Shown here one piece after another: positions 32,871 to 40,011 of a stretch of 44,064 bases of DNA. The stretch comes from Armatimonadota bacterium (lineage in GTDB: Bacteria; Armatimonadota; Zipacnadia; UBA1398; JAKPQA01), in NCBI GenBank assembly GCA_029547025.1, contig JAKPQA010000349.1, positions 1 through 44,064 of the forward strand, in the 5' to 3' direction. The stretch's first letter is position 1, and each line of letters opens with the position of its first letter. Below the pieces are notes generated by a model. The model was not told where the DNA came from. It saw nothing but the letters and a program-made list of their open reading frames with translations, and did no database searches. The position numbers and the translations under genes were made by a program.

Positions 32871-32956
32871 GTGCGAGGCAGAGCGGTTGCCTACGGTGTG
32901 GCGGCCATGTTGGCCGTTCTGGCTCCACCGTGTTGGCCCCGGGGGGCCGAGGGGGG
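32871..32956 (+). other. Signal-peptide coding segment in a different frame from the following gene
   Basis: From GTG 32871 the frame encodes a perfect export signal: basic RGR, a hydrophobic core with AAMLAVLAPP, then a short polar end. It reaches two G6 tracts (32941-32946 and 32951-32956) and after that is one base out of frame with the gene body. Loss of one G would join it to Asp-Val-Thr-Val at 32956. Without the shift the frame ends at 33080, a 69-residue product. A real frameshift, phase variation and a sequencing error are all possible. Confidence 0.6.
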
Positions 32957-32964
32957 ATGTCACG

Positions 32965-33990
32965 GTGGCGGACGCATATCCTGCGCCGGCCGTGATCGAG
33001 GGCGTCCCGAAGATCGGCTTCGGTGTTCACATGTGCCCCTTCCCCGGCTCCCTCTCGTCGGTCCTGGAGTTCCTGGGTGACCCGGTCGACTATGACTACG
33101 TGATGGGTGTCAGCGGGGCGTGCTTCCGGCGGGTCTGGAACCGAGACGACGGCGGCAATGTGGACCTGATGTACTTCGAGCCCGAGCCCTACGAGCGCAT
33201 CCTCAATGCGCTGGGGTACGAGTTCCGCACCGTTCCGCGCAGCGACAAGGCGGCGATGGTTGCGGCCGTCAAGGAGTCGATCGCCGCGGGGCGGCCGGTG
33301 CTGGCGACTGTGCTAGTCGGGCCTCCCGAGGTGGGCGTCATCACCGGTTACGACGCAGATGGTGAGACGCTCATCGGCTGGAGTTACTTCCAGGATGCGG
33401 CCCTGCCCGGCTACTGCGAGGTCCCTGGCTGGTTCGAGAAGCTCGAGGGCGGGCCGAAGGTTGGGCTCATTGTGCTCGGGGAGAAGACGGGCATGGTGCC
33501 GACGGCTGAGGAGACGCTCCTCTCATCGCTCGAGTGGGCCGTCGACCTGGCCCGCACCGAGACGCGTCCCGGCATCCCCGACCACATACTCGGCCTGGCG
33601 GCCTACGACGGCTGGGCGGACGGGCTCGAGGTGGATGCCGATTTCACGGCTGACGACGCCAGGGTGCTGGAGACGCGCCGCATGGTCCATGGCGACCAGA
33701 GTGTGATGCTGGTCGAGCGCCACTCGGCCGCCGGGTTCCTGCGCGACATGGCTGCCGAGGTGCCTGAGGTCGCTGAGCCTCTCGAGGAGGCGGCCCGGCT
33801 CTACGACGAGGTGGGCGATCTCATCGGCAAGGTGTGGCCGTGGGCGGATGACAAGGGTCCTGCCGTCCAGCAGGCGCTAGTCGACTCCGAACAGCGGCGC
33901 CAGGTCGCCGAGCACATTCGTGCGGCCCGGGGGCGCGAGGCCCAAGCCATCGGGTTCCTCGAACAGGCCATTGGGATGCTGAAGCAGTAG
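32965..33990 (+). CDS. BtrH_N/C39-like single-domain protein (body of a frame-split gene)
   Basis: The body reads as 341 residues from GTG 32965, the first start in this frame after the G6 tracts, with a G-rich SD upstream. Very probably the native protein starts at 32871 and is exported. The N-terminal domain (about 10-190) resembles the BtrH_N/papain-like superfamily: GFGVHMCPFPGSLSSVLEF with candidate nucleophile Cys24, YDYVMGVSGACFRRVW, IAAGRPVLATVL and GVITGYDADGETLIGWSYFQ. The His normally found before GYD in C39 enzymes is absent, so peptidase activity is doubtful. The C-terminal part is a helical bundle. The next gene encodes a two-domain relative. Function unknown. Confidence 0.75.
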   Translation: MADAYPAPAVIEGVPKIGFGVHMCPFPGSLSSVLEFLGDPVDYDYVMGVSGACFRRVWNRDDGGNVDLMYFEPEPYERILNALGYEFRTVPRSDKAAMVAAVKESIAAGRPVLATVLVGPPEVGVITGYDADGETLIGWSYFQDAALPGYCEVPGWFEKLEGGPKVGLIVLGEKTGMVPTAEETLLSSLEWAVDLARTETRPGIPDHILGLAAYDGWADGLEVDADFTADDARVLETRRMVHGDQSVMLVERHSAAGFLRDMAAEVPEVAEPLEEAARLYDEVGDLIGKVWPWADDKGPAVQQALVDSEQRRQVAEHIRAARGREAQAIGFLEQAIGMLKQ

Positions 33991-34016: not shown

Positions 34017-36323
34017 ATGCGCCACTGGCACGCGCTGGCCGCACTGGGTGTGGCGTCGCTAACGGGTGGCTCCGCCGCACAGGAATCGCCGTCCGAGTTC
34101 GCTCTCGAGGGCGTCCCCTACATCGGCAACGACTGGCAGGCGCACCTCGACGGGCCGCAGGACCTCATGTTCGCTTCGGCCATGGCGTCGGTGACGAAGT
34201 TCCTGGGAACCGCTCCGCCCGACGCGTACCGGTTCTTCATGGGCGTGTGCGGCGTCGCGCAGCAGCAGCTGTGGCACCCGACGGAATGGCGCACGGCGTT
34301 CGACGACGTGTGGCGGCTATCGGACGACCCCACCGAGTCGGTTCGCCGCACGTTCGAGGCCGCCGGGTACGAGTACCGCCTCTTGGGCAATCAGGCGGTC
34401 CGCGATGCTCGTGGGCTCCCTGCCGACTACCCGGAGTACGTGATACCCGACGTGCTGAAGCAACAGGTGTGTGAGAGCCTGCGTTCTGGTGTGCCGGTCA
34501 TCGCCTTCGGGCTGAAGAGCGGCGCGGCGGTGATCGCAGGCTACGAGGAGAACGGCGATGTGCTCCTCGGCTGGGCCATGCTCGAGAACGAGGGCGCGAG
34601 CGAGCGCGGGCTTGAGAACTACTTCCGGTTGCGCCAGTGGACCGATGAGACCCAAGGCGTGGCGCTGATCGGGCAGCGGGTCGAGCCGCCGTCGACCGAT
34701 GAGTCATGCCAGCGGGCGCTGCTCTGGGCCCTACAGAATGGTCGGCGCGCGCGCATTGGCGAGTATCTCTCCGGCCTCTCCGCCCTGGCTGCCTGGGCCG
34801 ATGCGCTGGTGCGGGAGCCCTTTCCAGACCCGGCCGACCTGGCCACCCTCCGCCGCCAGCACGTTTCACACTTCATGACCTCACTGAATGTGGCCGAGGG
34901 GCGTGCCTTCGCCTATGCCATGACGGATCCGGTGGAGCAGGCTCACCCGGAGGTCGCGGAGGACGTGGGCGTGACCATCCAATGTCACAGGCTGATGCAC
35001 GACCTGGTGTGGCGGCTCTGGCAGACCAAGGAGCCCGGCACCGAGGAGGAACAACTGAGGCGGTTCGCTGACCCCGCGGTGCGACAGGAGCTGCGCCGCA
35101 TCGTGCTGCTCGAGCGGGATGCGGACGCGCACGCCTTCGCGCACATTGACCACATGCTGCGCACGCTCGGAGTCGATCCGAAAGAGATCCCCGAGCCTTC
35201 GGCTGATGAGCGGGACATCGTGGCCCGAGCCGACGCGAGGGAGCAAGCGAGCGGCGGCGACCGGTCGGCGCTGGAGCATCAGGAAGTCAATCTGTGGGTG
35301 GGCGGCGTTCCGCGGATCGCGTGGCACCAGGGGAAGGACTGCACGTTCATTGGCGCACTCGAGGCGGCCATGGCACCGACCTTCCGCCCGTGCGAGTACA
35401 GCGACCTGATGGGCTACTCGGGGCTGGCGTTCCGCACGCGGTGGTTCCGGAACCCCGAGGGCGTCGCCACTCCTTACGGCACACTGCGGTGGCACCCGGT
35501 GAGCCCCCATGGCGAAGGCCCCGACGAGGTCGCTGCCATCAGTCGGGCCACGGGGTGGGACCTGCGCCGGGTCGACTTCGCCGAGGACGATCACCTGGCC
35601 CGGATGAAGGCCATCACGGACTTCGTGCTGTCCATCAACGAGGCCCTGCCCGTGGTGATCGGCTACAACACCGACCTGGCCGTGGCGTATGGGTACCACA
35701 TCCACAGCATGAGCCTCTTCCTGCGCGACTACCAGCGGCCGGATGCTGACGACATCCGCGTGGGTTCCGAGGATGCGAAGCTCGGCCCAGTGGCCGTGTT
35801 CCTCGGTGGCATTGGCGAGGCGCCGACTCCGGCCGATGCATTGCTCGATGGCCTCGCCATGGCCGTGAGCCAAGGGCGGCAGGCGAGGGGCGACGGATTC
35901 GTCTACGGGCCGGACGCACTCCGGGCGTGGGCAGGTGACCTGGCTGGCTACGATGGCTACTCGCCGGAGGAGCAGAGCCTGCTCTACCAGACGAACTGGT
36001 GGACGCTGATGCACCTGGCAGATGCGCGTAGGGCGGCTGTGGCGTTCCTGGAGGCGAATACCGAACTACTGCCTGAGGCGGCCCGATCGGCTCTGGCGCC
36101 GGCACTCGAGTGCTACTCGCAGGAGGCGGAGCTGCTGGACGGGTTCGTGACCGCGAACGCCCAGTTCCTTCCCTGGTGGGGAGGAACCGCTGGCGAGCAG
36201 GACTGGGACGAGGCGACGCGCCAAGCTCAGTCGTCCCTCTTGCTGAAGACCGCCGAACTCGAGGAACCGGCACTCGAAGCCGTGGGTGAGGCACTCCGGC
36301 GAGCGGGCCGGGCTGCCCAGTAG
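34017..36323 (+). CDS. Secreted two-domain BtrH_N/C39-like protein
   Basis: A 768-residue exported protein (signal to about 21, SGGSAAQ-like end), ATG 34017 with GGGAGG 6 nt upstream. It contains two copies of the domain found in the previous gene. Copy 1 (about 28-210) has FFMGVCGVAQQQLW and VIAGYEENGDVLLGWAM, but the nucleophile position is Leu50 (QDLMFASAMA), so it is degenerate. Copy 2 (about 425-610) keeps Cys442 in GKDCTFIGALEAAM and the LMGYSGLAFRTRW motif. Both copies are followed by long helical regions. It is probably a paralog by duplication. A binding rather than cleaving function seems likely for copy 1. No substrate can be named. Confidence 0.8.
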   Translation: MRHWHALAALGVASLTGGSAAQESPSEFALEGVPYIGNDWQAHLDGPQDLMFASAMASVTKFLGTAPPDAYRFFMGVCGVAQQQLWHPTEWRTAFDDVWRLSDDPTESVRRTFEAAGYEYRLLGNQAVRDARGLPADYPEYVIPDVLKQQVCESLRSGVPVIAFGLKSGAAVIAGYEENGDVLLGWAMLENEGASERGLENYFRLRQWTDETQGVALIGQRVEPPSTDESCQRALLWALQNGRRARIGEYLSGLSALAAWADALVREPFPDPADLATLRRQHVSHFMTSLNVAEGRAFAYAMTDPVEQAHPEVAEDVGVTIQCHRLMHDLVWRLWQTKEPGTEEEQLRRFADPAVRQELRRIVLLERDADAHAFAHIDHMLRTLGVDPKEIPEPSADERDIVARADAREQASGGDRSALEHQEVNLWVGGVPRIAWHQGKDCTFIGALEAAMAPTFRPCEYSDLMGYSGLAFRTRWFRNPEGVATPYGTLRWHPVSPHGEGPDEVAAISRATGWDLRRVDFAEDDHLARMKAITDFVLSINEALPVVIGYNTDLAVAYGYHIHSMSLFLRDYQRPDADDIRVGSEDAKLGPVAVFLGGIGEAPTPADALLDGLAMAVSQGRQARGDGFVYGPDALRAWAGDLAGYDGYSPEEQSLLYQTNWWTLMHLADARRAAVAFLEANTELLPEAARSALAPALECYSQEAELLDGFVTANAQFLPWWGGTAGEQDWDEATRQAQSSLLLKTAELEEPALEAVGEALRRAGRAAQ

Positions 36324-36384: not shown

Positions 36385-39300
36385 TTAGGGCGTCTTGTGC
36401 GCCACAAACGGCCGGTACCGGTCCCACTCGAAGTTGGGGCTGCGCAGCGGCGTGTGACAGGGCAGACAGGCTCGCGTTTCGACCGGCTTACCCGCAGCCG
36501 GATCATGGCCCTGGGCGGTGATGCCGCCCACATCATGGCAGGCCAGGCAGTGGACTTCCTGGAGCCTCAGGCCACCCGCGCCGGCCACGGGAGCCGAGTG
36601 GCACTGCCAGCAGTCGGGATTGCGCTCCTCACCCACCGACGCCAGGGTCGCCATGGCGTGGCCGTGGCCCGTTGATCTCCACTGCTCATACTCGGCCGCG
36701 TGGCACGCGCCGCACGACGCCGGCCGGAACTCGGTCCCGATGGTCTCCGCCGCCGCCAGCTCGCCGGCGAACGTGGCCTCCTGGGCGCCCTTGTAGTCCG
36801 CCACGATGGCCTGGACGGCCTCGTCCCTACCGGCTGAGTCGTCCAGCAAGACGAGGCGATTGCGGGCCGACTCGACCGCACCGTCCTTCAGCGTCAGGTG
36901 GAGCAAGCCCAGGAACTGCCCATCCCGGCCCGCCTCGACCAGTATGGTTGTCCCTTCGGACTCCTCAGCATGAGTCGCCCGGCCCGTGTGCGCGCCGATC
37001 ACCACATCGATGCCCGGCACCATCCGGGCAAGCTCCCGGTCACGCTCGGCACCGAGGTGCGAGAGGGCGACGACCACATCGGCCCCCGCCTCGCCGCGAA
37101 GAACGTGGGCCTCACGCCGCGCCGAACTGATTGGATCCTCGATCTCAATCCCACGCCGGTAGCTTTCGGTGCCGAAGGCGAAGGCCTCAGGCGCCAGCAC
37201 CGAGAACACGCCGATACGCAACAGACCACGGTCCAGCACGATGTGCCGGCTGGCCAGCGGCTCACCCGCCCTGGAGAGATTAGCCGAGACGACAGGCACC
37301 GGCGATCCCTGCCCGAGCGACGCCACGAAATCGGAACCCAGAGCCAGTTCCTGATCGCCGAGTCCTAGCGCATCGAGTCCCATCGACTCGAGGGCTCGCA
37401 GCAGGGCTGTGGTGCGAGCCGGGTCACCCATCTCGGGCAGCATGTCGCCAGCACTGAGAAAGACGAAGTTGCCCGCGCGCTGCCGTGCATCGCGAAGCGC
37501 TGAGGCCATGGCGGCCACGCCGCCGAACGGGTTGCCGGGGCATCCGCAGGCCTCGAGCTGACCGTTGAGGTGGCCCGCATACGCAATGGTCAGCGAGCTC
37601 GAGCTGATGCCCAACCGGTCCAGCACGGCCTCGGTCCTCTGCTGCGTGAGCAGAACAGACTCCTCGGGGCTGGAACCCCGCTCATGAAGGTCCACGAGCT
37701 CGCGATTCTCGACGAGCAGAGTCAGACCGGCCGGAAGGTTAAGCTCCTGGCGCGCTCGGGCGTCCGCCATCAGCGCCTCGAGGATCTCGGGTTGGGTCGC
37801 CCCGGCGCGAACCGTTTCGGGGTCGAGACCGACAGCACGCACAGGCACATCCCAGTACGAGCTGTTACCGACCTTGGCCCGCTCGTCGAGGTAGTCGGCC
37901 ATCAGTTCGGGCCGCGTGCGGCGTACGAATGCCTGCCGCGCCGCCTCCTCCACCTCGGCCGGTCCGCCGGGTGCCGCCAGGGCCCCGCTGGTGTTCTGAT
38001 ACACCACCCACCGAAGGTTCAGGTCGAAGCGCTCCAACGCTCGAGGCCTCGATAGCTCCCGAACGAAACGAGCGGCGGCGCCCAGCGATGCTGGATCAAG
38101 AGGGCTGAGGAACAGGTCGAGCCGCCGCGTCTCCCTCGGGCGCGTGATGTCCAGGGACCCCCCGGCGCGGTATGGCTCCAGCTGGTAGAGCTCGCCCTTT
38201 CGGAGCAGCCCGCCCTGCAAAGATGCAAACTCACGCGACTGCTCGACGGCTCTGTCGAGGAAGAACGCCGGCAGCCAACGGACATCCGCCGAAGCGATGA
38301 GCGCCCGCCCCTCGTCGGATGCCGCGTCGAGTGTTCGGACCTGAACCCCAGGCAGCAGCTGGGCCAGGGGCGACGTGATGCCGCCCGGATCAGTGAAACG
38401 GACCTCGGGGCTAGTCAGTACGGTGAGCTGGATGGGGATGGGGTCCTCGAACTCGCAGTGCCGTGCGCCATCTGCCTCGACACAGCGCCCAATCTTGCCT
38501 GTCTGCCGGCAGTCACGGTCGTCGAAACACTGGGGCAGACCGGAGCACACCTCGGGCCGCCCGGCCTCCGGCACAGCGGAGCAGAGGTAAGTCAGCATGC
38601 GGTCGCGGGTGATCTCGGCGTAGCTGCCGGTCCGCGTGCCGTTCACGAGCAGCGTGGGCGTCTCCCGGATGCGAAACCGCTTTGCCAGTTCGGCATCGTG
38701 CAGCAGGCGCGCCTCAGACTCGCGGCCCTCCACACAGCGCTCGATGGGATCGGCATCGACACCAATGGACCGGAGGAGCTCCTCGAAAGGCGATTGCGGC
38801 GACACCATGCGCGCCACTAGATACTGGGCGATACGCGGACCGGCCACACGCTCGATGCACGCCTGGCGTCTGTCCTCGAGCAACTCGGCGGGCTCGGTGC
38901 CGGAGTCGAGAGCGCCGTCCTCGCCCGCGTGGACGACATAGTGACGCCGCAGGACGACCCGCTTCGGCCCGAAATCCTGAACCGCGGCGAACACCTCGGG
39001 CTGAGCGGTGCGGCAGTGCGGGCACTCGGAGGTAACGTAGAGGTCGACCACGGCTTGGCTCTGCTCAGCGAGGTCGCCCCCGAGCCGCGCCTCAAAGGCA
39101 TCGACCAAGGCGCCCACTTCGGCATCGCTCTCGACCTGGTCCGAAAGGCGCATCTCGCGCACCTGGAACCCATCGATCCGGTGCCGCTCATCAACAGTGA
39201 AGTCGATGCGCCCCAGCGCTCGCCCCTGGTAGCTGAAGTGCGCTACCACCGTCCCACCGATCACATCGGACAGCCCCCCGGGCTCCGAGGACATCCGGTG

Positions 39301-40011
39301 GGCGTTGATGAGCACGTCGATCCCGCCCACCTGCTGCAACAGCTCGCGCGAGGTGGTCTCACCCAAGTGGCTCAGCAACACCACGACATCCACCGCGGCT
39401 CGGATCTGCTCGACAACGGCCCTCACGGCCGGGATGGGAGGCGATACGGAGAGGCCATCGGGAAAACGGCCCTCATCGAACAGAAACGCCTCGTCCGGAG
39501 TGGCACCGATGATCCCAAAGCGAAGGCCCCCAACCTCGCGCACCACGTGGGTGGGGAGAAGCAGCCTGCCGTCGGCCCCGCACAGGTTGGCCGAGACGAA
39601 CGTCGTCCGGGCGACATCCCCCGCATGGCGGAGGAAGTCGGCACCATAGGCCAACTCCTCGTCCCCCACTCCGACGGCGTCGTAGCCCATCAGGGCCATG
39701 GCACGCAGTGTCGTAAGGGTCCGCTCTCGATCGACGACCGGACCCAGCGTGTACTCGTCATAGGGGCCGCCCGCGAAGAGGCCTCCGGCATCGACGACCA
39801 GCACCGGATTGAGCCCCCGCTTCCGCACCTGTCGCAGCATCGTGGCCCGCCGCGCCACGCCTCCATCGGGCCGGATGGGGCAGTTGCACGGGCCCACCAT
39901 CGAATGCGTCTCGCCGGTGTAGGCAATGGTGTACTGCAGTCCCCAGGCGGGCAGCGCGCTGCAGGCCACAAGAACCACAAGACTGCCGGCAATCGCGGCG
40001 CGATGGGTCAT
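36385..40011 (-). CDS. Exported fusion: metallophosphoesterase-like / DsbA-like / thioredoxin-like / metallophosphoesterase-like / tetraheme cytochrome c
   Basis: A 1,208-residue protein from ATG 40011 with a signal peptide ending near PAWG-L. Residues 25-275 and 807-1048 are two UshA-like metallophosphoesterase domains, each beginning with a Cys-X-Cys-Pro motif (PCNCP at 41-45; ACGCP at 821-825) and keeping LSHLG. The canonical GNH(D/E) is GDEE (116-119) and GDQE (885-888). Residues 321-475 are DsbA-like, with C330-P-H-C333 and cis-Pro452. Residues 480-520 are Cys-rich. Residues 525-795 look like two thioredoxin folds without CXXC. Residues 1075-1208 resemble cytochrome c554, with CXXCH at 1100-1104, 1134-1138, 1155-1159 and 1182-1186. 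It would be periplasmic and redox-active. I know no characterised homolog with this order. Confidence 0.85.
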   Translation of the reverse strand: MTHRAAIAGSLVVLVACSALPAWGLQYTIAYTGETHSMVGPCNCPIRPDGGVARRATMLRQVRKRGLNPVLVVDAGGLFAGGPYDEYTLGPVVDRERTLTTLRAMALMGYDAVGVGDEELAYGADFLRHAGDVARTTFVSANLCGADGRLLLPTHVVREVGGLRFGIIGATPDEAFLFDEGRFPDGLSVSPPIPAVRAVVEQIRAAVDVVVLLSHLGETTSRELLQQVGGIDVLINAHRMSSEPGGLSDVIGGTVVAHFSYQGRALGRIDFTVDERHRIDGFQVREMRLSDQVESDAEVGALVDAFEARLGGDLAEQSQAVVDLYVTSECPHCRTAQPEVFAAVQDFGPKRVVLRRHYVVHAGEDGALDSGTEPAELLEDRRQACIERVAGPRIAQYLVARMVSPQSPFEELLRSIGVDADPIERCVEGRESEARLLHDAELAKRFRIRETPTLLVNGTRTGSYAEITRDRMLTYLCSAVPEAGRPEVCSGLPQCFDDRDCRQTGKIGRCVEADGARHCEFEDPIPIQLTVLTSPEVRFTDPGGITSPLAQLLPGVQVRTLDAASDEGRALIASADVRWLPAFFLDRAVEQSREFASLQGGLLRKGELYQLEPYRAGGSLDITRPRETRRLDLFLSPLDPASLGAAARFVRELSRPRALERFDLNLRWVVYQNTSGALAAPGGPAEVEEAARQAFVRRTRPELMADYLDERAKVGNSSYWDVPVRAVGLDPETVRAGATQPEILEALMADARARQELNLPAGLTLLVENRELVDLHERGSSPEESVLLTQQRTEAVLDRLGISSSSLTIAYAGHLNGQLEACGCPGNPFGGVAAMASALRDARQRAGNFVFLSAGDMLPEMGDPARTTALLRALESMGLDALGLGDQELALGSDFVASLGQGSPVPVVSANLSRAGEPLASRHIVLDRGLLRIGVFSVLAPEAFAFGTESYRRGIEIEDPISSARREAHVLRGEAGADVVVALSHLGAERDRELARMVPGIDVVIGAHTGRATHAEESEGTTILVEAGRDGQFLGLLHLTLKDGAVESARNRLVLLDDSAGRDEAVQAIVADYKGAQEATFAGELAAAETIGTEFRPASCGACHAAEYEQWRSTGHGHAMATLASVGEERNPDCWQCHSAPVAGAGGLRLQEVHCLACHDVGGITAQGHDPAAGKPVETRACLPCHTPLRSPNFEWDRYRPFVAHKTP

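Follow-up and report, generated by a model that had tools for sequence, protein, structure and literature searches.

Can metallophosphoesterase (MPE), thiol-disulfide and multiheme cytochrome modules be combined in one bacterial protein, and what would such a protein do? The question is raised by a single open frame in a 44,064-nucleotide stretch of an Armatimonadota genome (contig JAKPQA010000349.1, hereafter the window). Pfam and NCBIfam profiles identified two UshA-like/SoxB/5'-nucleotidase matches, a Thioredoxin_4/DSBA match and a Cytochrome_C554 match in its translation. The chain runs from a predicted signal peptide through MPE1, a DsbA-like domain, a linker, a doubtful thioredoxin-like stretch, a second DsbA-like domain and MPE2 to a tetraheme cytochrome (Table 1). 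A sequence-only reading had described one exported chain with a DsbA fold between duplicated MPE domains and hemes at the end. Profiles, together with an AlphaFold model of the middle part, bear out this arrangement, and the four CXXCH sites and the CPHC motif that it listed are all present in the frame. Its Cys-X-Cys-Pro motif for both UshA-like domains needs a correction: CxC is found in both, but the proline is conserved across the orthologs only in MPE2, its place in MPE1 being taken by valine in the orthologs.

Table 1. Features of the fusion protein, with window positions and the evidence for each.
Feature	Residues	Position	Strand	Evidence or remark
Whole coding frame	1208 aa	36385..40011	-	ATG at 40011, stop at 36385-36387; full-length orthologs
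Predicted signal peptide	1-24	39940..40011	-	read by eye; N-terminus also hydrophobic in both orthologs
MPE1, UshA-like domain	26-297	39121..39936	-	NF041198 142.6 bits alone; 5'-nucleotidase 2z1a E 7.6e-16; degenerate ligands
CxC motif of MPE1	C42-N-C44	39880..39888	-	alignments
DsbA-like domain 1	315-475	38587..39069	-	profile match, AlphaFold, Foldseek
CPHC active site of DsbA-like domain 1	330-333	39013..39024	-	CGYC in orthologs
Cys-rich linker, six invariant Cys	477-520	38452..38583	-	ortholog alignment
Possible thioredoxin-like stretch without CxxC, 'WLPAFFL'	524-628	38128..38442	-	uncertain; low model confidence
DsbA-like domain 2 without CxxC	630-790	37642..38124	-	paralog of domain 1, hhalign E 6e-10; pLDDT mostly 70-93
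MPE2, UshA-like domain	805-1077	36781..37599	-	profile, structure and paralogy matches
CxC motif of MPE2	C822-G-C824-P	37540..37548	-	aligns with CxU of Sec relatives
c554-like tetraheme cytochrome domain	1097-1206	36394..36723	-	PF13435 24.8 bits, cut-off 20.8; 1bvb E 4e-4
Heme motif 1, CGACH	C1100	36700..36714	-	CXXCH in sequence
Heme motif 2, CWQCH	C1134	36598..36612	-	CXXCH in sequence
Heme motif 3, CLACH	C1155	36535..36549	-	CXXCH in sequence
Heme motif 4, CLPCH	C1182	36454..36468	-	CXXCH in sequence

Full-length orthologs with the same domain order and ~40% identity were found in the only two other sequenced species of the order (genomes of Armatimonadetes bacterium UBA1398 and Armatimonadia bacterium Bin_177), which is the recurrence that the sequence-only reading had named as support. 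Kinship with these two would put the window genome in the class Armatimonadia of the phylum. Both orthologs (loci L026 and L025) were assembled independently and belong to another family than the window genome, and their frames contain no in-frame stops besides the terminal stop codons. The window derives from a draft assembly of 369 contigs; since the same ~1200-residue architecture recurs in these two genomes, the chance that an assembly or frame artefact fused separate genes, as the sequence-only reading had also considered, is close to nil, and a chimera was rejected. The middle part was complete in 3 of the 291 Armatimonadota genomes searched, namely the window genome and those of the two orthologs, and in three further genomes of the phylum the matches were weak and confined to a portion of one DsbA domain. 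A scan of named genomes from all phyla, made with two short peptide patterns that distant relatives would escape, returned the same two orthologs only; no relative of the middle part was matched on plasmids or viral contigs. The fused architecture is so far limited to one order.

DsbA-like domain 1 scores above the PF13462 cut-off (25.4 bits against 23.2) and contains a thioredoxin fold with a helical insert, a CxxC and a TPT cis-Pro motif. The AlphaFold model of the middle part (mean pLDDT 69, and 80-93 in much of domain 1) adopts a DsbA/GILT fold, and Foldseek matched it to DsbA and GILT structures (E ~3e-6). Domain 2 is a paralog of domain 1 (28% identity), a relationship detected by hhalign only; it has 'SPLDPAS' in the window protein and no CxxC. 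The resemblance of domain 1 to DsbA and GILT thiol oxidoreductases extends to fold, CxxC and cis-Pro motif, with the differences that it is embedded in a multidomain cytochrome and accompanied by a second copy without CxxC. The window protein is the sole Thioredoxin_4 match of its genome, a fragile count because both orthologs fell below threshold in the same search.

Exactly 20 cysteines are invariant across the three orthologous chains: those of the two CxC motifs and the CxxC pair, six in the linker and eight in the heme motifs. Four other cysteines of the window protein (C18, C145, C385 and C425) vary among the orthologs. The four CxxCH motifs, predicted heme sites of a c554-like cytochrome, are invariant in 15/15 cytochrome sequences, as are H1116 and W1111 in all 15 cytochrome domains. 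Three histidines, H1116, H1169 and H1205, do not vary among the fused proteins and could serve as distal heme ligands. The domain shares with cytochrome c554 the four CxxCH motifs, a Pfam match over the cut-off and a match to the c554 structure 1bvb; it differs in being ~110 residues long and fused to other domains. A cytochrome c assembly protein (PF01578) is present in the window genome.

Profile comparison with hhalign shows the two MPE domains to be paralogs of each other (E 6e-39, 36% identity). Eight ligand or catalytic positions, canonically D,H,D,N,H,H,H,H, are intact in 10/10 nucleotidase-like relatives of the phylum; two nucleotidase rows (L012 and L016) were left out of this comparison and of the tree described below. 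The same positions read E,H,G,D,E,H,H,M in MPE1 and H,N,D,D,Q,H,H,G in MPE2, so that only three of the eight are left in either domain, a different set in each, and neither has the GNHE pair. The catalytic Asn-His of GNHE is gone from all 18 family sequences, and nearly all ligand and catalytic residues are lost in relatives with a single MPE unit. Conversely, CxC or CxU occurs in 18/18 family sequences and in 0/10 canonical nucleotidases. Because the GNHE pair and several metal ligands are lost, both MPE domains are probably not phosphoesterases, and a phosphate substrate, one of the options in the sequence-only reading, is not supported. In comparison with 5'-nucleotidase, UshA and CD73, the fold and sequence of the MPE domain are alike, whereas the ligand and catalytic residues are lost, CxC is added and no nucleotide-binding C-terminal domain is seen. 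The protein is an example of how a phosphoesterase fold can give up metal chemistry and acquire a cysteine or selenocysteine centre.

The pairing of an MPE domain with multiple hemes is already known. A UshA-like (seleno)protein with CxU is a named selenoprotein family in surveys (PMC13188914; PMC9312934), given elsewhere as COG0737 UshA-like CxU (PMC2398784), and is represented by the NCBIfam model NF041198 (UshA_like_PCGU; 519 positions, curated cut-off 275 bits). No function for this family, which has appeared in selenoprotein surveys since 2008, was found in the literature. The whole chain scores 320.5 bits, above the cut-off because its two MPE copies add up; MPE2 plus cytochrome alone reaches 185.1 and MPE1 alone 142.6. 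Elsewhere in the class, genomes encode shorter proteins in which a single MPE is joined to this tetraheme domain and no DsbA domain occurs. In Armatimonadia the seven single units and MPE2-cytochrome parts scored against the model gave 115-189 bits, and by these scores the window chain and the single units appear to be distant relatives of NF041198 rather than clear members. The likeness lies in an MPE, a C-terminal stretch matching the tetraheme part and CxC (CNC, CGC), placed behind the first MPE strand at the CxU column; the model has one MPE and no DsbA, whereas here two MPE domains enclose inserted DsbA-like domains.

In four single-unit relatives (L038, L019/L040, L041 and L042; one in genome G005, one in G027 and two in G031) an in-frame TGA occupies the second Cys of CxC. 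These UshA-like tetraheme proteins of Armatimonadota are likely selenoproteins, as all three genomes carry SelB above its curated cut-off. In alignments their Cys-x-Sec falls on the CxC of MPE2. No SelB above the cut-off was found in the window genome, which uses Cys; both ortholog genomes carry SelB, yet their fused proteins also have Cys. In a tree of MPE domains, MPE1 (97/98) and, more weakly, MPE2 (84/79) each group across the three species, and the MPE duplication is therefore older than the species split. The single units form a separate group (95/98) and canonical nucleotidases stand apart (100/100); branches are long and deeper placement is unsure.

What could such a chain do? We give about an even chance to an exported thiol-redox relay on one polypeptide. 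Through CPHC, the DsbA-like domain would swap disulfides with a small thiol or a client protein. The next thiol centres would be the CxC pairs of both UshA-fold domains, which would no longer work as phosphoesterases, and the tetraheme domain would pass single electrons to a redox partner or accept them from it. Either direction is possible, oxidising or reducing the clients. The sequences show which domains are present and in what order, which cysteines are conserved and that phosphoesterase residues are lost; from these we infer the path from CPHC through CxC to heme, together with the order of its steps, the client and the substrate. The reading is favoured because the 20 putative redox, linker and heme cysteines are invariant and the other cysteines of the window protein are not, because the DsbA fold has both CxxC and TPT cis-Pro, and because CxC or CxU accompanies the loss of Asn-His throughout the family. 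It is further favoured by the TGA in relatives whose genomes have SelB, and by the c554-like domain together with a cytochrome c assembly protein in the genome. Selenocysteine at a site usually denotes redox catalysis. The coupling of electron transfer to thiol chemistry, one of the options in the sequence-only reading, is plausible. Counting against a relay, the neighbours of the orthologs differ from those of the window gene and no neighbouring gene names a substrate, the single-unit relatives have no DsbA domain, and the full-chain AlphaFold model (pLDDT 51) is unusable for domain contacts and gives no CPHC-CxC-heme distances. The best structural matches of this poor model were CD73, other 5'-nucleotidases and SoxB.

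SoxB works in the periplasm on a sulfur chain attached to a protein, and its place among the closest characterised folds (partial TIGR04486 match of 153.8 bits; structures E ~1e-9; Foldseek E 6e-16) suggests an enzyme for sulfur or selenium compounds. Like SoxB, the MPE domains would bind a sulfur substrate, be it an oxyanion or a persulfide or S-sulfonate linked to a cysteine of CxC, while the hemes gave or took electrons and DsbA reset the cysteines. The likeness to SoxB is one of fold. This reading is unlikely: the score is far under the SoxB cut-off of 550, most of the di-metal ligands of SoxB are missing, and the neighbourhood showed no Sox gene.

The CxC pairs could also be metal-binding instead of thiol centres. 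Soft metals are commonly bound by CxC motifs, and a few of the His ligands are still there around the former metal site. The MPE folds might serve as scaffolds for copper or another soft metal, with the hemes and DsbA shifting the oxidation state of the metal or the thiol. Metal handling of this kind seems quite improbable, given that the change of the second Cys to selenocysteine in relatives fits redox catalysis better and that no metal-resistance genes were seen nearby. It is very unlikely that the protein is still an active metallophosphoesterase with altered ligands, its remaining domains playing an accessory part. The MPE domains are clearly homologous to 5'-nucleotidases and UshA, and three of eight key positions are left per domain, but these are a different three in MPE1 and MPE2, Asn-His is lost from every family member, and other domains stand where UshA and CD73 have the C-terminal nucleotide-binding domain.

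A bolder reading is a disulfide generator independent of DsbB and VKOR, in which DsbA would be wired through the CxC of dead phosphoesterase folds to the tetraheme cytochrome and the Sec-containing UshA-like cytochromes would be stand-alone oxidase halves. We consider this a long shot. Neither DsbB nor VKOR was matched in the window genome and the two ortholog genomes (G000-G002), but both were also without a match in all 46 Armatimonadia genomes; the absence is class-wide and therefore not specific evidence of replacement. DsbD-type transporters were found, as was cytochrome c assembly.

The DsbA fold, like the MPE-multiheme pairing, is known. A literature search of incomplete coverage found no description of the MPE-DsbA-linker-DsbA-MPE-tetraheme combination, and nothing relevant on MPE with multiheme and selenocysteine or on DsbA-multiheme fusions. 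The fusion hints at a link between the UshA-like (seleno)protein family and DsbA-type chemistry. It is a natural lead that the CxU/CxC site of this family does thiol redox chemistry feeding the hemes, and it offers a single soluble polypeptide for testing that role.

The surroundings of these genes show some further features. A gene with a formylglycine-generating-enzyme-like domain stands directly upstream of each ortholog (L025:5658-7034 and L026:5699-7036; PF03781 tested on L025) and is absent around the window gene. Upstream of the latter on the same strand is a 1050-aa HEAT-repeat protein (PF13646; 40182-43334, -) with a weak galactose-binding-like match, not kept beside the orthologs. 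Two neighbouring exported proteins on the + strand (32887-33990 and 34017-36323) have a common domain (E 7e-21 and 2e-9), present in two copies in the second, which has no Pfam match. On other contigs of the window and ortholog genomes, single-unit MPE(CxC)-tetraheme genes recur in clusters with a GHL10-like gene (PF02638) and a weak C39-peptidase-like gene, sometimes with a small Cys-rich protein that has a double-glycine-like leader (L034:4096-9572, L036, L037, L030 and L045); these clusters are possibly a peptide-modifying or exporting system.
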